Assembly: GCA_013306675.1 (NCBI GenBank)
Contig: JABLUY010000026.1
Span: forward strand, 1-64,000
Reading direction: 5' to 3'
Length of the DNA stretch: 64,000 nt
DNA from: Thraustochytrium sp. TN22
Taxonomy: Eukaryota; Sar; Bigyra; Thraustochytrida; Thraustochytriidae
A program made the position numbers and the translations under genes. Under the pieces are notes generated by a model, which saw nothing but the letters and a program-made list of their open reading frames with translations, had not been told where the DNA came from and did not search any database. Below, piece by piece: positions 6,916-64,000 of the stretch (within the stretch, counting starts at the first letter, position 1; the number at the start of each line of letters is the position of its first letter).

Positions 6916-7368
6916 ATGATCGGCCAGGTTGTCCGCCGCGCTGCCCAGCAGCCCGCCGTCCGCCGGTACGTCACTCCCAAGCTAGCGACTTCGCTCATGC
7001 GCGCTTGTTTCGCACGCACGCAGACCTCATTCTGACTTCTCTCATGTCGCAAACCAACCACAGCGTCGGCCAGGTCCGCATGCTCTCTGCCGAGGCCAAC
7101 CCGTACGTTTCCCATCCGAGGAATTACCAAAACGCAACGAACGTGTGAAGACTGACGTGCCAGCTCTCGCGATTTGATTGCGCTCAACAGGGTCAAGGAG
7201 CAGCAGAAGTTCTTTCAGAAGGGCGCCACCCCGTACCTTCGCGGCGAGGCCGACCCGACCTACCTTCGCAAGTCGGGCGACAACATCGTCGCTGGCGTCG
7301 GCCTCGGCCTTGCCGGCCTCGGCACGGTGATGGTCTTTGCCAACTTCGCCCGCATGATCTTCGGCTAA
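6916..7368 (+). CDS. COX7A: Cytochrome c oxidase subunit 7A-like, mitochondrial (3 exons)
   Basis: Exons 6916-6965, 7064-7102 and 7191-7368 encode 88 residues. The N-terminus (MIGQVVRRAAQQPAVRR, then VRMLSAEA) is Arg-rich without acidic residues before the cleavage-like region, fitting a mitochondrial presequence. The mature part has KEQQKFFQKGATPYLRGEAD, matching the COX7A pattern of a K.K.FQ motif followed by a Y/HLKGG segment, then one Gly-rich membrane helix ending FARMIFG. Introns are 98 and 88 nt, both phase 2, both with GTACGT donors and CTGAC branch motifs. It would be a small inner-membrane subunit of respiratory complex IV. Family assignment rests on a short motif and the single membrane helix. 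Confidence 0.7.
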
Positions 7369-55215: not shown

Positions 55216-56434
55216 GTAAGCTCATCGACCCTTTCTGCCAGTGTTGAGTGTACGATTTTTTTCGTTGTGGACTGCTTCGCGCGCCTTGAAGAAACCCAAA
55301 AGCCGCAAGTTGGCGAGCCAGTCTTGGCCGTCGTGTGCCAACTGGCTACCCTCTCGTGAACTTTGGAGAGAAGCGAGAGTGTGTGTGTGAGAGAAGGCTC
55401 CAAACTCCGCCGGACACGAAAAGTGCGCTCGAAGCTTCGCGAGATTTTGCATCCATGCGGCCACGTGCTGCCGACGCAAGTCTCATTTAGTACGTTTCGT
55501 CATTGTAGCGTTGCGCAGGCGCTGCGCTGATAGTGTCTGTAGCAACCGCGCCGGGCCTTCACGCATGCTCAAGGACGAACGATAGTCTCGCAGCGCAACT
55601 GCCGCTGCCACGTGCGGCCAGCTCGTCATGACGCGCGTGTGCACTGCGCTCTTCCAGCCGACCACCGAATGAAGGGCACTGCAGTCTCCCTCCATCCCAA
55701 GATTCTCAAGAACAGCGCAGCGCGCAGCGCACGGCCGCCGCGGCCGTACCTCACCGCGCCTGGCCGACGGGTCCCGAGTCGGCGCTGCTCTCGATCCTGC
55801 ACCCTGATCAAGGACTCTGCGTGTCGCCGGCTGCGTGGCGCTCTTCGCAAGTCGATCTGTGCCTGTTTCAGGACAGCGAGCACGCGCCGTACCTGCGTCG
55901 CCCCTGACACTGCACAGTCGGCAAAGGCCAACAGCCAACAGAAGTAAGTTAACTTATGAGAAGAGTGACATTGCCGCTGTCACTGATGTGGGCGACGCGC
56001 GTGTGCACGCGCCGTACGGCGCTCCGAGCGCAGCTGCTGAGCGCTGCTGAGCTGAGCTCGCGCAGCCGCGGCCAGGCAACCCGCGCAGCGCGCGCGCGCA
56101 GCAGGTGAACGCGGCAGCGGCAACGCCAAGCCAAGCCAAGCCACGCAAGAGGCGCGGCGAGGCAGGGCAAGGCAAGGCAAAGCAAGGCCGGGAGCGAGGC
56201 TCGGTGGCTCGAGTCGACCGCGTGCCGAGGGCGGCGACGCGTGCCAGTGCCCTCGGGCCGACTCGGAGTAGAGCGGCCTTGAGCGGCCGAGGTACTCGTG
56301 GCTGCACGCAGCGCGGCGGGCGCGGCAGTCGCGGTCGCTCTCGGGTCGGTCGGCGACGCGCGGGGCGGCGGCGGGGCGGCGCGGCAGGGCAAGGCGGCAG
56401 AGCGGCAGCGCGGAGGGGGCGGCAGGACGGCGAG

Positions 56435-57427
56435 ATGGGGTGCGTGGTGAGCGCCGACAAGGGCGCGCTGACGAGCCGCGCGGCGGCGCAGGCGGTGGAG
56501 GAGGAGGCCGCGGAGGGCGGCGAAGCGTACAACGAGGCGCTGGTGTTCATCAAGCCGCACGCGGCGACGAGCGAGGCCAAGGCGTTCGTGGAGAAGTTCC
56601 TGCGCGAGCACGGCGTGGAGGTGCTCTCGGAGGGCGTGTGGACCGGGCCGGAGATCGACCAGCGCGGCATCATTGACGACCACTACGCGCACATCGCCAA
56701 GATCGCGATGCGCAAGCAGCCTGCCGAGCTCAAGGTGGCCGAGGACAAGAAGAACGCCTTCTCGTCCACCTTTGGCGAGACCTGGGAGCAGGCGCTGGAC
56801 GAGGGCCGTCTCGTCAACCTCAAGGCCTTCGAGGAGGAGTTCCCGGACCTGACCACGGCCGAAATTAACTCCAAGTGGATCGCTGACGTGGAGAAGGTCA
56901 AGCTCGCGCCCGGAACCTACGTCGGCTACTTCAAGGACCAGGACCGCTTCGTGATGAACCCGTTCTACGCCAACATGCGGGCCGTCTACACGGCCCCCAA
57001 GGCGCAGGTGACCTACTTCACCGTGCGCTTTCCGGAGGCCACCGTGCCTTGGGACGACTTCCGCAGCAAGGTCATCGGCGCCACGGACCCGGCCCAAGCC
57101 CACGACGGCTCGCTGCGTGCAAGCATGCTGGCCAACTACAAAAGCCTTGGCCTGCCCACGCCGCCCAACGTCGGCGAGAACGGCGTCCACGCCAGCGCCG
57201 GTCCGCTCGAGGGCCTCAAGGAGCGCATGGTCTGGACCGGCGCCACCCTTGAGTCTGACGCCTTTGGCGCCGAGCTCCTCGCGGCCAATGTCGACCGCGA
57301 CATGCTTGACACCTGGCTCGACAACCAGGTTGTCACCATCAACGGCAAGACGGACCATGCCTTTGATCTGCTCGAGGACATGAACGCCAGCGAGGCGCTT
57401 GCGCTGGCTGTCCAGGCCTCCTCGTAG
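56435..57427 (+). CDS. Nucleoside-diphosphate-kinase-like protein with N-myristoylation signature
   Basis: A 330-residue protein starting MGCVVSADKG at 56435. Gly2 with Ser6 fits the N-myristoylation consensus and Cys3 a palmitoylation site, so membrane attachment is likely (inference). EALVFIKPHAATSEAKAFVE matches the first strand and helix of NDP kinases (IKP). After a ~130-residue insertion, VTYFTVRFPEATVPWDDFRS, then VIGATDPAQAHDGSLRASM and ENGVHASAGPLEGLKERM match the end of the fold, with His in the position of the catalytic His (N.IHGSDS in true NDPKs). The protein is twice the size of an ordinary NDPK. Whether it is an active kinase is unknown. I chose this ATG because the upstream open frame is low complexity and the MGC start is distinctive. 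Confidence 0.65.
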   Translation: MGCVVSADKGALTSRAAAQAVEEEAAEGGEAYNEALVFIKPHAATSEAKAFVEKFLREHGVEVLSEGVWTGPEIDQRGIIDDHYAHIAKIAMRKQPAELKVAEDKKNAFSSTFGETWEQALDEGRLVNLKAFEEEFPDLTTAEINSKWIADVEKVKLAPGTYVGYFKDQDRFVMNPFYANMRAVYTAPKAQVTYFTVRFPEATVPWDDFRSKVIGATDPAQAHDGSLRASMLANYKSLGLPTPPNVGENGVHASAGPLEGLKERMVWTGATLESDAFGAELLAANVDRDMLDTWLDNQVVTINGKTDHAFDLLEDMNASEALALAVQASS

Positions 57428-57865: not shown

Positions 57866-60800
57866 TTATTTGTCAATGTTGTCGTCATCGTCGACGTATA
57901 CAATGTCGCATCGGGAGAGGCCATCCTGCATGTCTGCGACAGAGCGCTTGACGTTGGAAAAGTCGAGGCCGGTGCGTACCCAGTGGGTGAGAAGCTCCTC
58001 GAGCGAGTAGGTGGCACCACCCAATTTGACCGGGTCGGCAATATCGTCGCCCAAAAGGGTGGAGCGGCCCAGGCTGACGCGCTTGCCGTTGCGGGGCAAG
58101 TTTTCCCAGGACATCTTCTGAGCGGCCTCGTGGCGGTCCTGACGAATCCACTCGGGCCAGTCGTGGAGCCAAGCCTCGAACTCCTCATCCGTGACGCTCG
58201 TGGCGCGGCGCGTGACGCGAATGACCTCCTCGCCCGGAATAGTGCTGCCGTAGACCATAAAGTGCGAGGACACGGGCAAATTGAGCGGAAGGCGAAACTG
58301 GATCTCATACTGCAGGTAGACGCAGACGTCGTCGACCTCAGAGAAGCCGCCGCGCTGCTGGATGCGCATGCGCGCGGCCTCGTGCACAATGTCCAAGTTG
58401 AGGAGGCGACGTCCGAGCGCGCGAAGCTTCTCACGATCACCGCGCGCGTGCGCCACGGTGGAAACCACCTCCATCTGGTTAAGCGCCCAGATAGGTTTGT
58501 CCTCGCAGGCGTCGATGGCGTCGGCCATGCGCGCCGACAGCTCGTCGCGCGCCTCGTCGTCCGTAGCGACCGTGTGCAGGACCTCGACGATGCGCTCCGC
58601 GAGTCCACGCCGTGTGGACGGGTTGCGGTACTCCCGCGCGTTGCGCAGCATCTCCAAAAAGGTGAGCACGCTGCGCCGGTACGCCGGGTCCACGACCTTG
58701 TCCAGCTTCATGAGCACCTCATAGTCGTCTTCCACCTCGAAGAGCATGCGCATGAGGCGTGGCGGCCGGCCCAGGGCGGCCGCCTTCCAGAAGAGCACGG
58801 CGCTGCGGAAGCTCTCAAAGTCGCCCTCCATGTCCTCGTCGTCCGCGCCAGTGTCCTCCACGTCCTCGCTCGACCAATCCGCCTCAAAGGCCATCTCCTC
58901 CTCTTCCTCTTCGCGGTCAAAGATGGAGTCCGTCACGCCCAGATCGCCCGCATGGAAGCCGTCCGGCATCCACGTCGTGAACTCCAGCTGGCCCTGCAGC
59001 ACGTACTCCTCGCGGACGCCAGCCAGCACTTCTGAGCTAATGCCCGTGCCATGCAGCATCACGCACCGCCGCACGACTGCGGGCCGCTCCGGTGGCGCAC
59101 TACGCCCGCGCACGCGCGCCAGCCAGTGCGACGGTCGCCGCGACCGCAGGCTCCCGTTCTGCCCTCCGCCCGCCTGGTACTCCTCCCACTTGGACTTGGC
59201 GCCCTGCGCCTCGACGCCCAGCGCGCGCATGCGCTCCACGATGACTCGAGGTACCTCCGTGATGAGCGGCGCAGCATTCACGAAAAAGTTCACCTCCACC
59301 TGGATATCCGGACTGATCTCGCACAGAGCCGGCAGGTTCGTCAACACCAGCGAGGTGGCGCGCAAGCCCGGCGGGATGCGCACCATCTTCGGACAGACCG
59401 ACACGATCAGCCGGTGCACGTTCTCCGCGAAGTTGCGCCGCCGATGCACCTCCTCGGCATCCGGGGCGTCCTCCTCCTCCTCTTCCCCCCCGGCCGCGTC
59501 GCTCGATGCGGGCGGAACCAGGTCCTCGGACCCGTCCTCAGTGTAATCCTCGTCGCCCAGATCTTCCTGCGCGAGCTGCGCGTACGTCGCCTCCTCATCC
59601 GCGTGCAGGTCTACGCCCCACGAGGAAGGCGCCTCCCAGAGCGCGGCGGCCTCGTCCACGTCGTCGTCCTCCTGCTCACCCGAGTCGCGGTACTGCTCCT
59701 CCTCCTCCTCCGCCGCCTCCTGATACTCCCGCGGAGTCTCGGGCACCGACTCCAGCAGCGCGCCCGCGCTCGAGCGCCGTGACGAGGAGGCGCGCCGCTG
59801 CGACTGGATTCGCGAGAGCGACTCCCGGGCCTTGCCCAGCAGCGTATTGCGCCGCAGCCAGGTGTAGTCCACGGGCGGCGACTTGGACGTCCAGGCGCGC
59901 TGCCGCTGCCGCAGGAGCTCCGCCGTGTGCGCCGCAAGCAGCCTCTCGAGCTCGGGCGAGTTGCCACGCCACCTGGCCGGCACGGACCTGTCCAGCCGGC
60001 GCTCCGCCTGCTGCACGCTCTTGCGCCGCAGCCGCAGCCGCCGTACCACGGGCTTGCTCAGAATCTCCGGTGGCCGCTCCAGGCGCAGCCCGGTTGGCAG
60101 CTCCTCTAAGCTCTCCAGCGTGTGCAGCGCCGCCGTATCGCGCACCAGCAGCCGCGACGGCACGGCGTCCAGCAGCCGACACGAGGCCACGATCAAGTTG
60201 CCGTAGTACAGCGCATTCGCCGGAAGCGCCAACAGGTTGTCCAGGAATGCAAAGACCGCCTCGCCATAGACCGTGAGATCGCTCGGCAGCGTCTTGAGCA
60301 TCGGGCACCCAATGATGAGCGCCATGCCCGGATGCTCGTCGCGCGCAAAGCCGTCGCGCCGCTGGTGCGGCAGCGCGGCCAGCGCCGGCCAGCCCGTCTC
60401 GAGTCTCATATAGCTCATGTCCTCGAGGCCCATGCAGTAGCGAATGTCGACGCCGCCGCGACACACGAGCTGCTGCGGCAGCCGCCGCAGCGACGGACAG
60501 TTGCGCAGGCGCAGCACGCCCGGCACGTCGTCCTCCGCCCCGCCGCTCAGCGCCGCGTCGTTCCAGCTCTGCAAGAGCGGAAGGTCCTCGCCCACCTCCA
60601 GGCGGTCGCCCGTGAGCTCCTCGAGGCTCGTGCAGTGCGAGAGATCCAGCGACCCGAAGACGCGCTGCATGCTGAAGCTGCGCAGCCGCGGGCAGAAGCG
60701 GAACTTGACCGTGCCCTGCTTCGCGATCCGCGTGATGCCCGGCAGTCGCTGGCCGGCCAGCGTGCCAGGGTGCACCACCTCGAGCGCCGCCATGCGCGAG

Positions 60801-63800
60801 CACGTCAGGTCGCCCAACACGCGGATCGGCTGCAGCTCGCGCAACGCCGTCCCGGACAGGTTCAGGTTGCCCAGCACGAGCTCCATAGGGAACTCCTCGA
60901 GCGCCACGCACCCCTGCAGGTCCACGTTGCCCACGGCGGACCGCAGGCGGACCACATAGCCGTCTTCGCGCACGCGCGCCACCAGACCAGCGCGGAAGCC
61001 CGGCTGCACTTGCCGCAGACGCGGACAGTTGCACGCGCTCAGCGACGCCACGTGAATGGCCGGGATGGCCTCCAGGGACGCGCACCGGTCCACGCACAGC
61101 CGCACACGACCGGGCGCCGCATTGAAGACATCGTCCGGGATGTGCGTGAGCCGCGGGCAGTTGTTCAGGTCCAGCGACCGCAGCGTGCGCGGCAGCGGGC
61201 CCGGCACCGTACGCAGCCCACGGCTGCCGGCCAGCGAGAGCGAGGTCAGCCCGGTCAGCATGCCAATGTCCAGGGGTCGCGACGGACGCGACACAGGGTC
61301 TGGCACCGCCACGCCCTCCTCGCCGGCCTGGCTCGCGGCGCCCGCCGCCTCCACGGCCTCCACCACTTCGCCCACGAACCGCGGGCACTCAAAGAGGTGG
61401 AGCCGCTTGCAGCCCGTGCGCAGCTTGAGCGACTCAAGCTGCGGCAGGCGCGACAGCTTGAGCTCGCCGCGCGAGGAGTCTCGCGTGGAGAGACCCAGGT
61501 CCACGTGCGTCACCTTGGCACACTCCGTCACGCCAACCGACTGCCAGACGCCACGCAGCTCCACGGCCTCGAGCTCGTTGCACGACTGCACGTCCAGCCA
61601 CGCCTGCCCATTGCCCTCCAGGTCATGCAGAGAAAGCACCCCTACATCATTGAGCACCACGCGCGTGGGCTCCTGGCCACCCAGGACCACCGCCTCGTCC
61701 GAGAGCTGCTTGAGCGCCGGCACGCGCACCACCTTGAACTCTCCGTTCGCTGCCTCAATGCGCACGGACCGCGCCAGGCGCTCTAGCGTCGGGACGTCCT
61801 CCAGGTTCAGGTTGCGCAGTGTCAGCCGGCCGCCGGCCAGACGCTCCAGGCTTGGGCACTGCATCACCTTGAGCTCCACGGGGAAGGCCGGCGCGTTGCG
61901 CTCCCAGACCACCTCCATGTCCGGGCACCACTCGAGCGTCAAGGACCCAAAGTCCTCGTCGCACCGCCATTCCGGCAGCGCGCTCAGCGGCAGCTCCTGC
62001 AGCTGCAGCGTAGGCGCCGAAATGGTGCCGCGGATGCGCCGCACCGGCAGGTTCGATACCCTGACGAATCGCTTCGCCTGCACATCGTCGTGCCAGTCGC
62101 GCACCGCGTCCTGTGCCGGTGCGACCGCCGCGCCCGGCTCGCGGTCCACCTCCTCGTCCGCGAGCGGCGCGGGAACGCTCCTGCGGATGAACTCACTCGT
62201 TCGGCGGAAGAGCCCCAGAGTAGCCCCGAGTTCTGAAGCTTGGGCGGAAGCCGCGTCGGCCTCGGCCCCGGCCTCGAGCGAGGCCGCGATCGCGGCCTCA
62301 ATCTCGGATTCCGCCTCCGGACTACGCCGTCTCGCGCCAGAGCCGTTCAAAATGCTGTCGCGGTAGTACGAGTTGCCGCGGAGCGTGAGCGAGTACACCT
62401 CGATGGAACCCTCGCACAGCTTGGACGGCAGGCGCGGACCAGCGACGGAGACGGCCCCTAGAGGCGCCTGAATACGGCCCGCCAGCGGCTTATCCGTGTT
62501 GACGCTATCGATCGAGATGGGTACAATGTTCGGCGACCCGTCAGCGCGCGTGAGCGCCGCCTCGCACCTCAACGAGCCCTCGCACAGGCGCTCAATGCGG
62601 CCCTCCATCACCTCGAGTGCGCCCTTGACCACCAGGTCACCCTGGCTCAGCGTGCGCAGCTCCGGACATCGGTTGATGCGAGTCTTGGTGCCCAGCTCCA
62701 GGTGCTCCGACCCAAGGTCCGTCAGTTGCGGCAGGTTGTGCAGGTCGAGCGACCCGAGAATCTCCAGAGCCGGCGGCAGCGCTACGATCGAGTTGCAGTT
62801 GCTCACGCGCAGCTTCTTGAAGACCAGCGTCTCGCCCTCACCAGCGACCGACGGGATGAGCGCCTCCAAGCCCGTACAGGCCTCGATCTCCAGCACGGCC
62901 GGCGAGTCCCTGGATGTCAGCAGGTCCGCCGAAAGCGTCTGCAGGCCGGTCGTGCTCCTCAGGATCCTTTGGTTCGCCTGCACGCTCTCCAGAAAAGATT
63001 GCGGCTGGCCGCGGCACGTCTCCAGCAGCAGGCGGTCACACGTCCAGCCCACGACGCCAAAGAGCACCAGCTCGCAGTTGCGGAAACTAAGCTCCCCGCT
63101 CACATGGACGTTGTCTGGAAGCGAAGACATGTTCTCCAGGTTTTCCAGCGCGAGGTTGCCCTCGATGGCGATGCTCGCCGGCGCCCCGTTCTCGCCCGGC
63201 ACCAGGCGGGCGTGCTGTTCGCCCAGGGTCTGGAAGAGCCGCATCGCTGCGTACTGATTGTCAACGGTCGAAGACCACTGCCGCAGGTGATCTGACAGAT
63301 CATCTGCCAGCACGAAGCCGACTCTCTGCTCCGTGAGCTCCAGGTTCTCATGCGAAAGCGCCGCGAGGTTCTCCTCATCAAAACTCAGGCTCAGCGCGAG
63401 GAGCGCGTCCCAGTCCTCGCCAGCGGCGTCGCCGTCGCCCATGGCCTCCGCCAGAAAGTCCTCCAGGCTCATGGGCGTACTCTCTTCGGCCTCGCCCGCG
63501 ACCTCGTCCGTTGCCGCGTCCCCGACCACATCCGCCAGCAGGTCCTCCTCCTCGTCCGCCGCACGCGAGCTGCACCGACGCTGCGCGGCTTCTTCGACCG
63601 CGCGCGAGCTGCGCCGACGCTGCGCGGCCGCATCGACCGCGCGTGAGCTGCGACGGCGGTGCACGGCCTCTTCGACCTCCATCTGGGCTCTCGCCAGCGC
63701 CTCCGAGGCGCGCAGCGCCGCCAGCAGGTCTGCGTCGACGTCATCCTCCAGCTCCTCGTCATCGTCTGCGACGTCGTCCTCCAGCTCCTCGTCACCCTGG

Positions 63801-64000
63801 CCCAGCTGCTGCGACAATCGATGCCGCAGCGACGAGAGCCGCGAGCGCGCCTGCGACAAGGACCGCCGATCGCCCGATCGCCGCTGCTCCGCGGCCGCCT
63901 CCGAGTCGGCGCCGGCCGGCCGCGCAGGCGCCGCGCTCGCGCGCGCCTCGTGCGTCGACTCGCGCGCGTGCAGTCGCCCCGGCGCGCACACGAGCTTGCG
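57866..64000 (-). CDS. Giant LRR protein with C-terminal NEL-type (IpaH-like) E3 ubiquitin ligase domain, 5' end cut
   Basis: The frame is open to the right edge; 2041 residues are visible and the true ATG is probably outside. Residue numbers count from 63991. Residues 1-200 are charged, with a 12-residue AAQRRRSSRAVE-type repeat x3. Residues ~275-1310 are leucine-rich repeats with NCPxLxxL and LPxTLxxLxL units (e.g. LPRTLRSLDLNNCPRLTHIP). An acidic linker follows (~1330-1530) and a short last LRR block (IPPGLRATSLVLTNLPALCE). Residues ~1727-2041 align with the NEL domain of Shigella IpaH and Salmonella SspH/SlrP: FLEMLRNAREYRNPSTRRGL, then ADAIDACEDKPIWALNQME with Cys1829-Glu-Asp as the CxD active site, EAARMRIQQR, VCVYLQYEIQFRLPL, MVYGSTIPG and EEFEAWLHDWPEW. 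NEL ligases pass ubiquitin through this Cys. Composition matches neighbouring genes. Confidence 0.85.
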   Translation of the reverse strand, partial: RKLVCAPGRLHARESTHEARASAAPARPAGADSEAAAEQRRSGDRRSLSQARSRLSSLRHRLSQQLGQGDEELEDDVADDDEELEDDVDADLLAALRASEALARAQMEVEEAVHRRRSSRAVDAAAQRRRSSRAVEEAAQRRCSSRAADEEEDLLADVVGDAATDEVAGEAEESTPMSLEDFLAEAMGDGDAAGEDWDALLALSLSFDEENLAALSHENLELTEQRVGFVLADDLSDHLRQWSSTVDNQYAAMRLFQTLGEQHARLVPGENGAPASIAIEGNLALENLENMSSLPDNVHVSGELSFRNCELVLFGVVGWTCDRLLLETCRGQPQSFLESVQANQRILRSTTGLQTLSADLLTSRDSPAVLEIEACTGLEALIPSVAGEGETLVFKKLRVSNCNSIVALPPALEILGSLDLHNLPQLTDLGSEHLELGTKTRINRCPELRTLSQGDLVVKGALEVMEGRIERLCEGSLRCEAALTRADGSPNIVPISIDSVNTDKPLAGRIQAPLGAVSVAGPRLPSKLCEGSIEVYSLTLRGNSYYRDSILNGSGARRRSPEAESEIEAAIAASLEAGAEADAASAQASELGATLGLFRRTSEFIRRSVPAPLADEEVDREPGAAVAPAQDAVRDWHDDVQAKRFVRVSNLPVRRIRGTISAPTLQLQELPLSALPEWRCDEDFGSLTLEWCPDMEVVWERNAPAFPVELKVMQCPSLERLAGGRLTLRNLNLEDVPTLERLARSVRIEAANGEFKVVRVPALKQLSDEAVVLGGQEPTRVVLNDVGVLSLHDLEGNGQAWLDVQSCNELEAVELRGVWQSVGVTECAKVTHVDLGLSTRDSSRGELKLSRLPQLESLKLRTGCKRLHLFECPRFVGEVVEAVEAAGAASQAGEEGVAVPDPVSRPSRPLDIGMLTGLTSLSLAGSRGLRTVPGPLPRTLRSLDLNNCPRLTHIPDDVFNAAPGRVRLCVDRCASLEAIPAIHVASLSACNCPRLRQVQPGFRAGLVARVREDGYVVRLRSAVGNVDLQGCVALEEFPMELVLGNLNLSGTALRELQPIRVLGDLTCSRMAALEVVHPGTLAGQRLPGITRIAKQGTVKFRFCPRLRSFSMQRVFGSLDLSHCTSLEELTGDRLEVGEDLPLLQSWNDAALSGGAEDDVPGVLRLRNCPSLRRLPQQLVCRGGVDIRYCMGLEDMSYMRLETGWPALAALPHQRRDGFARDEHPGMALIIGCPMLKTLPSDLTVYGEAVFAFLDNLLALPANALYYGNLIVASCRLLDAVPSRLLVRDTAALHTLESLEELPTGLRLERPPEILSKPVVRRLRLRRKSVQQAERRLDRSVPARWRGNSPELERLLAAHTAELLRQRQRAWTSKSPPVDYTWLRRNTLLGKARESLSRIQSQRRASSSRRSSAGALLESVPETPREYQEAAEEEEEQYRDSGEQEDDDVDEAAALWEAPSSWGVDLHADEEATYAQLAQEDLGDEDYTEDGSEDLVPPASSDAAGGEEEEEDAPDAEEVHRRRNFAENVHRLIVSVCPKMVRIPPGLRATSLVLTNLPALCEISPDIQVEVNFFVNAAPLITEVPRVIVERMRALGVEAQGAKSKWEEYQAGGGQNGSLRSRRPSHWLARVRGRSAPPERPAVVRRCVMLHGTGISSEVLAGVREEYVLQGQLEFTTWMPDGFHAGDLGVTDSIFDREEEEEEMAFEADWSSEDVEDTGADDEDMEGDFESFRSAVLFWKAAALGRPPRLMRMLFEVEDDYEVLMKLDKVVDPAYRRSVLTFLEMLRNAREYRNPSTRRGLAERIVEVLHTVATDDEARDELSARMADAIDACEDKPIWALNQMEVVSTVAHARGDREKLRALGRRLLNLDIVHEAARMRIQQRGGFSEVDDVCVYLQYEIQFRLPLNLPVSSHFMVYGSTIPGEEVIRVTRRATSVTDEEFEAWLHDWPEWIRQDRHEAAQKMSWENLPRNGKRVSLGRSTLLGDDIADPVKLGGATYSLEELLTHWVRTGLDFSNVKRSVADMQDGLSRCDIVYVDDDDNIDK

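Follow-up and report, generated by a model that had tools for sequence, protein, structure and literature searches.

The NEL ubiquitin ligases (PF14496) are described, in the parts of two sources consulted here, as a Gram-negative bacterial family without structural homology to eukaryotic ubiquitin ligases (E3s) (PMC12506513, PMC9320238). In SspH1, as laid out in the same part of the first source, a catalytic core (residues 405-622) is followed by a thumb (623-697) of two long antiparallel helices that binds the ubiquitin-loaded conjugating enzyme (E2-Ub) (PMC12506513). Among the titles and abstract openings listed from the open-licence literature, none describes eukaryotic NEL ligases apart from a claim for green algae (PMC7145615), and no paper in that literature joins the NEL domain to thraustochytrids; PMC7029713 contains the accession PF14496 in a search table only, and the part of PMC6557245 consulted concerns bacterial effectors. 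In this study, we examine a NEL gene on the minus strand of a 64,000-nucleotide stretch of Thraustochytrium sp. TN22 DNA (the window, lying in contig C188 of our set), whose protein combines leucine-rich repeats (LRRs), a NEL core and a predicted C-terminal U-box-like domain.

The gene belongs to a real eukaryotic NEL family of candidate ligases, in which the bacterial thumb is predicted to have been replaced. We favor, with a probability of about 0.68, the reading that these proteins are a family of endogenous Cys-type E3s whose U-box-like domain docks the ubiquitin-loaded E2 (E2~Ub), whose NEL Cys takes over the ubiquitin, and whose variable repeats choose the targets. What is seen directly is the NEL sequence with its predicted fold, the Cys-x-Asp motif, the predicted U-box-like fold, the size of the family, its conservation across sources and, for the catalytic part of recent copies, a ratio of nonsynonymous to synonymous substitution rates under 1.

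Results

The NEL core and its active site

The gene is read as a single open frame, and its catalytic end comprises the last three features below.

57866..64000 (57866-64018 in contig C188), minus strand: NEL gene, a single open frame by open reading frame analysis, likely 2047 amino acids
58118..58813, minus strand: NEL catalytic core, about residues 1733-1964, by profile match and predicted fold
58499..58507, minus strand: Cys1835-Glu-Asp1837, predicted catalytic Cys and Asp, aligned with the CED of IpaH9.8
57869..58075, minus strand: C-terminal U-box-like domain, about residues 1979-2047, by structure comparison and profile

The Pfam NEL profile matches the window protein at 85.1 bits (E 5.9e-24; cut-off 24), and a phmmer search of solved structures returned E <0.001 only for ten IpaH/SspH chains, the best being IpaH9.8 (3l3p, E 1.4e-7); together these confirm the NEL domain named by the original prediction. 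The CED of the window protein aligns with the Cys-Glu-Asp of IpaH9.8 in the phmmer alignment, and structure comparison of the predicted model finds the helical NEL core fold. Two findings that would speak against a NEL identity, namely the failure of any profile or structural match and a misplaced Cys/Asp pair, were looked for in sequence and fold and were not encountered, the active site being placed by sequence alignment. The last ~310 residues had been assigned to NEL as a whole; this assignment stands for a core of ~230 residues, but the last ~70 are instead the predicted U-box-like domain.

A predicted U-box-like domain at the thumb position

In the eukaryotic NELs, the slot of the bacterial thumb holds a predicted strand-containing domain for which structure comparison supports a U-box/RING fold, and the predicted structure of the window protein does not contain a helical E2-Ub thumb of the bacterial type. 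The extension is present in all 48 rows (25 of 25 frames of this genome and 23 of 23 relatives from other sources). Its profile, trained on 19 of the 25 own frames, gave a score of 31.9 in support of the U-box-like reading, where 200 shuffles without gappy columns reached at most 14.13; in the control that kept the gappy columns, at least one of 200 shuffles scored 126.65 with probability 99.6, the 95th percentile being 0.45. A search of five extensions with Pfam for its U-box family (PF04564) returned no family at E up to 10. The tails of 20 bacterial loci, 52-79 residues long, are richer in helix formers than the eukaryotic extension (0.60 vs 0.37). They do not match the U-box profile (probability 0.15), nor do they match that extension (0.09). 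A U-box in bacterial NELs was considered and rejected: the sole match to the extension profile (E 0.0066) lies on the strand opposite the NEL of locus L145.

The E2-contact and linchpin columns were assigned by general knowledge of U-boxes. The loop-1 column that we take to be the hydrophobic E2 contact, with Leu1985 as the predicted contact in the window protein, is occupied by L, F, M, V or I in 47 of 48 rows, and the 'DPV' hairpin retains its Pro in all 48. The loop-2 Pro column, with Pro in 5 of the 5 U-boxes used, is by alignment a gap in 47 of 48 rows; N08, P0009 and P0019 carry a Pro one column past it. The presumed linchpin column holds Asn in 42 rows and Arg in one, and in the five U-boxes Arg three times, Gln once and Asn once. 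From these models we predict that a U-box-like fold replaces the bacterial helical thumb in the 48 eukaryotic members examined.

A multigene family in the genome

NEL matches 25 times in the genome (37.9 Mb in 453 contigs), each time above the cut-off and without an internal stop; none of 14 control genomes has a NEL match. Cys-x-Asp occurs in 25 of the 25 frames and takes the form C-x-D-K-P-x-W/F-A-L in 23. It is invariant over 27 aligned rows and present as well in the two variant frames, N02 (CGDRVTW) and N11 (CGDKPIQ). The DKPIWAL stretch after the Cys is absent from N02, and some siblings are divergent.

Frame lengths run from 471 codons, shortened by a contig end, to 3511. A Pfam run on N09 and 22 further frames (all except N21 and N24, with N08 covered over 2417 of 3511 residues) found SPRY, LRR and NEL in N01 and N06, Armadillo and NEL in N05, and SAM and NEL in N08, in which LRR-like stretches remain under the cut-off; the other scanned frames show NEL alone above it. 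Read by eye, the LRRs of N16 (locus L039) and of P0020, a protein from another source, are preceded at the N-terminus by a region that is rich in Cys and apparently spans the membrane.

The genome also holds two strong matches to PfaD-type synthases of polyunsaturated fatty acids (PUFA) (G000:C124:42424-43761 and C415:117114-118451), a family that also matches in 3 of the 14 controls, one of them above the cut-off. These matches are consistent with a thraustochytrid genome, as are the NEL relatives.

Copy pairs and selection

Eight copy pairs were compared stop to stop, so that the N-terminal part may include untranslated codons. In the part spanning NEL and the U-box-like domain they are 64-97% identical, with a ratio of nonsynonymous to synonymous substitution rates (dN/dS) of 0.16-0.45; identity in the remainder of the frame runs from 34 to 92%, with dN/dS 0.43-0.86, the N22/N23 comparison covering 66 codons only. 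Most of the catalytic part is conserved, whereas the recognition part differs between copies, the pattern expected for ligases whose targets change. The idea of positive selection on the LRRs was considered and rejected, dN/dS being below 1 in all eight pairs.

NEL genes stand in groups of four on C453, three on C158 and four on C335. On these contigs, adjacent copies (L029, L034, L041, L042, L044, L045, L047 and L048) have a near-identical catalytic end and diverging repeats. In N18/N21, identity is 0.95 in the catalytic part vs 0.59 in the rest and synonymous divergence (dS) 0.07 vs 0.76, a difference that suggests either that the catalytic part was converted or that repeat parts were exchanged; N24/N25 shows no such contrast, with identity 0.92 in both. 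The pattern in the adjacent copies, some pairs having far higher dS in the repeats, likewise suggests gene conversion or exchange.

Relatives in other sources

Protein homology searches, which reach only close relatives sharing exact words with the query, returned 23 distinct relatives, all 23 with PF14496. With an alignment of eukaryotic NELs (A1) as query, none of 8000 scored candidates proved to be a relative, and searches of viral contigs, of plasmids (tblastn) and, with A1, of genome contigs yielded nothing useful. Within the reach of the protein searches, nearly all relatives whose source is named come from thraustochytrids. Four come from Hondaea fermentalgiana (P0004, P0006, P0010 and P0020), on contigs of 175-939 kb; P0019 carries the taxon id of Thraustochytrium LLF1b, and P0017 is an MMETSP transcript. 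P0011 has a record name after SspH1, and its sequence, tree position and C-terminus place it in the eukaryotic group.

The likely orthologue of the window gene is P0001 (73% identity over 283 columns; support 100/99). Other likely orthologue pairs are P0004/N05, P0002/N08, P0012/N11, P0005 and P0006/N03, P0020/N04 and P0023/N10. Because these sources have orthologues in common, several NEL subfamilies are older than the split between them.

Public annotations of the Hondaea NEL proteins read importin alpha, disease-resistance protein TAO1 (twice) and tubulin; P0020 combines NEL with a tubulin-like part and may be two merged genes. P0013, an Armadillo-NEL protein whose record gives the dinoflagellate Durusdinium trenchii as its source, lies on a contig of 11 kb and is possibly a thraustochytrid contaminant.

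Eukaryotic and bacterial NELs in one tree

An IQ-TREE analysis of 63 rows (43 eukaryotic, 20 bacterial) over 288 columns placed a single branch between eukaryotic and bacterial NELs, with support 100/100 and presence in 100% of 200 bootstrap trees. The near-duplicates N15, N21, N23, N24 and N25 were left out, as was L134, with a stop inside its match, from both the tree and the tail counts. On the bacterial side, the order of Cohaesibacter, in which 3 of 397 genomes match, contributes four loci. The other 16 were taken out of 60 matches listed for the Pseudomonas linyingensis family, in which 16 of 198 genomes match. On this alignment the eukaryotic rows form one group relative to the sampled bacteria, and the split, being unrooted, gives no direction. 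A eukaryotic branch of the NEL family, one of the origins first proposed for the window gene, is borne out by the 25 matches, the 23 relatives, the orthologous subfamilies across sources and the 100/100 split.

The bacterial NELs are diverse among themselves in the tree. Of 398 genomes drawn from the phylum to which a Magnetococcales genome belongs, presumably Pseudomonadota, 8 have a NEL match. Single genomes of the Pseudomonas linyingensis family have up to seven NEL matches, and one copy from that family, L149, has no C-x-D in its match. In a bacterial symbiont, Candidatus Symbiopectobacterium (G008, the genome of L087), a frame of 421 codons matches NEL at 162 bits.

The N-terminal part of the window protein

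Upstream of the catalytic end, four further features were located.

59975..63172, minus strand: leucine-rich repeats of irregular form, about residues 280-1345, including a charged insert at about 560-660, by motif count against shuffles
59195..59422, minus strand: short LRR-like patch before NEL, about residues 1530-1605, by motif positions 1534 and 1569
63371..63418, minus strand: UIM-like (ubiquitin-interacting) motif, residues 198-213, weak, by pattern scan without Pfam support
62273..62305, minus strand: second UIM-like motif, residues 569-579, weak, by pattern scan without Pfam UIM support

Counted over residues 1-1690, one motif of the LRR type appears 19 times, where 500 shuffles gave a mean of 1.5 and a maximum of 5, so that the ~1000 residues of LRRs described earlier are real, though irregular; the Pfam LRR models all fall under their cut-offs on the window protein. 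A profile of relatives (A3) aligns continuously, from LRR into NEL, with SspH1 44-452 and SlrP 59-543, and its LRR part also matches plant chains of the NLR type. The LRR region is probably the target-recognition part. The UIM-like motifs are not claimed: the pattern matches 11 times, with overlaps between some of the matches, where shuffles gave 2.9 on average and 9 at most, and Pfam reported UIM only for P0002, sub-threshold.

Gene model and neighbors

Within the window, the minus-strand frame 57866-64000 has 2044 open codons, and once the adjoining sequence is added it begins at C188:64018. Both this frame and the Cys codon at 58505-58507 are where they had been described; the GTG at 63991 is probably not the start. 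The likely start is an in-frame ATG at C188:64007-64009, just beyond the window, which gives 2047 residues and makes Cys1829 of the original numbering Cys1835. An AGCTCC-type hexamer repeat run lies directly upstream of this codon (L049, about 7027-7100).

The clear eukaryotic neighbors reported before are present, with EMP70, Nop14 and TRM genes on the same window. G+C is 0.67-0.70 in the NEL gene, within a window range of 0.58-0.74. A neighboring plus-strand frame at window 56105-57427 has a weak nucleoside diphosphate kinase match (E 0.0091), under the Pfam cut-off.

Discussion

In the mechanism that we propose, the N-terminal part (LRRs here; SPRY with LRR, SAM, Armadillo and others in siblings) would bind targets and would probably also restrain the enzyme by autoinhibition. 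The C-terminal U-box-like domain would dock a ubiquitin-loaded E2 at the position of the bacterial thumb, and Cys1835, aided by Asp1837, would accept ubiquitin by transthiolation and then deliver it to the target. A linchpin Arg pushes E2~Ub toward direct transfer to lysine. Because this Arg is absent, the U-box-like domain may be more like RING1 of the RBR ligases, relaying ubiquitin to the Cys. RING1 has no linchpin and favors transfer to cysteine, according to the part of the source consulted (PMC5462532), and by this analogy an RBR-like working of the NEL-U-box proteins is inferred.

The same columns could be read otherwise. The proteins might be active NEL ligases whose core itself binds E2~Ub, with the U-box-like domain serving as a structural cap, binding ubiquitin or exerting autoinhibition. 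The gapped loop-2 Pro column (47/48), the Asn at the linchpin (42/48) and the lack of a Pfam U-box match are what such a domain might show, but it occupies the position of the bacterial thumb, was detected in each of the 48 rows and retains a hydrophobic residue at the E2-contact column in 47 of them, and we consider this reading unlikely. Catalytically dead relatives serving as scaffolds or receptors are a good deal less probable: the ligase activity of the family is predicted, and siblings such as N02, without DKPIWAL, have diverged, but Cys-x-Asp is retained in 25 of 25 frames, as against the bacterial L149 without it, and catalytic dN/dS is <1. Less probable again is the use of these proteins by the protist as secreted effectors on other cells, an idea prompted by the injected bacterial relatives and by parasites among the thraustochytrids, both given in the consulted parts of their sources (PMC9320238 and PMC11642839, respectively); against it, the proteins are long and multi-domain, some with SAM, SPRY or Armadillo domains of intracellular type.

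With regard to origin, the NEL core may be eukaryotic or of long residence in eukaryotes, bacteria having taken it from protist hosts and added the helical thumb. Ubiquitin is eukaryotic, 25 diverse matches in this one genome compare with 8 of 398 genomes in the phylum draw, and the 100/100 split leaves the root unplaced. Bacterial NELs are nonetheless themselves diverse in the tree, the family is described as bacterial in the part of the source consulted (PMC9320238), and the named eukaryotic sources are nearly all thraustochytrid, though the searches reach close relatives only; we regard this origin as rather doubtful, slightly more so than the cap reading above. Bacterial contamination or an assembly artefact, which the best-known occurrence of NEL in bacteria might suggest, was rejected as extremely improbable in view of EMP70, Nop14 and TRM on the same contig, G+C inside the window range, the Hondaea relatives on 175-939 kb contigs, the PfaD-type PUFA-synthase genes in the genome, and a C-terminal domain unlike the tails of the 20 bacterial loci.

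We thus retain the reading of an endogenous Cys-type E3 family. A bolder version, tentative and at somewhat less than even odds, is that of a distinct thraustochytrid NEL-U-box class in which the U-box-like domain has taken both the place and the job of the thumb, ubiquitin is relayed in an RBR-like manner, a fixed catalytic part is joined to a diversifying recognition part, and bacterial effectors possibly derive from protists. A large, conserved and at least partly transcribed eukaryotic family supplies the missing comparison for the origin of the NEL fold. It bears on how NEL is controlled inside its own cell and on whether different E2-docking modules can be fitted to the same catalytic core. 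HECT and RBR gain a further candidate class at their side, and the question of where a major effector family came from can be put to a direct test.

Comparison with known systems

The green-algal NLR genes also carry a claim of NEL in a eukaryote, but in the part of the source consulted the basis of this claim is a region of an LRR-type superfamily to which homology with NEL is ascribed, and no catalytic Cys domain is shown there (PMC7145615). The effectors IpaH, SspH, SlrP and NopM are much closer, with the NEL core by profile and predicted fold, the Cys-x-Asp, and LRRs before the core as in the window protein; the protist differs in having a multigene family, N-terminal parts that are often longer and varied, and a U-box-like domain instead of the thumb. 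To the U-boxes of Ufd2, E4B, CHIP, Prp19 and AvrPtoB, the protist domain is alike in predicted fold, in the register of the 'DPV' hairpin and helix, and in the hydrophobic E2-contact column, whereas its loop-2 Pro column is mostly a gap, its linchpin is Asn, it has no Pfam match and it is fused to a Cys-type core. With the RBR ligases, the likeness is one of proposed logic, a RING-like fold without linchpin working together with a catalytic cysteine (PMC5462532, in the part consulted). We claim no homology with them; in the protist proteins the catalytic domain is NEL, and the cysteine domain comes first, followed by the RING-like fold.

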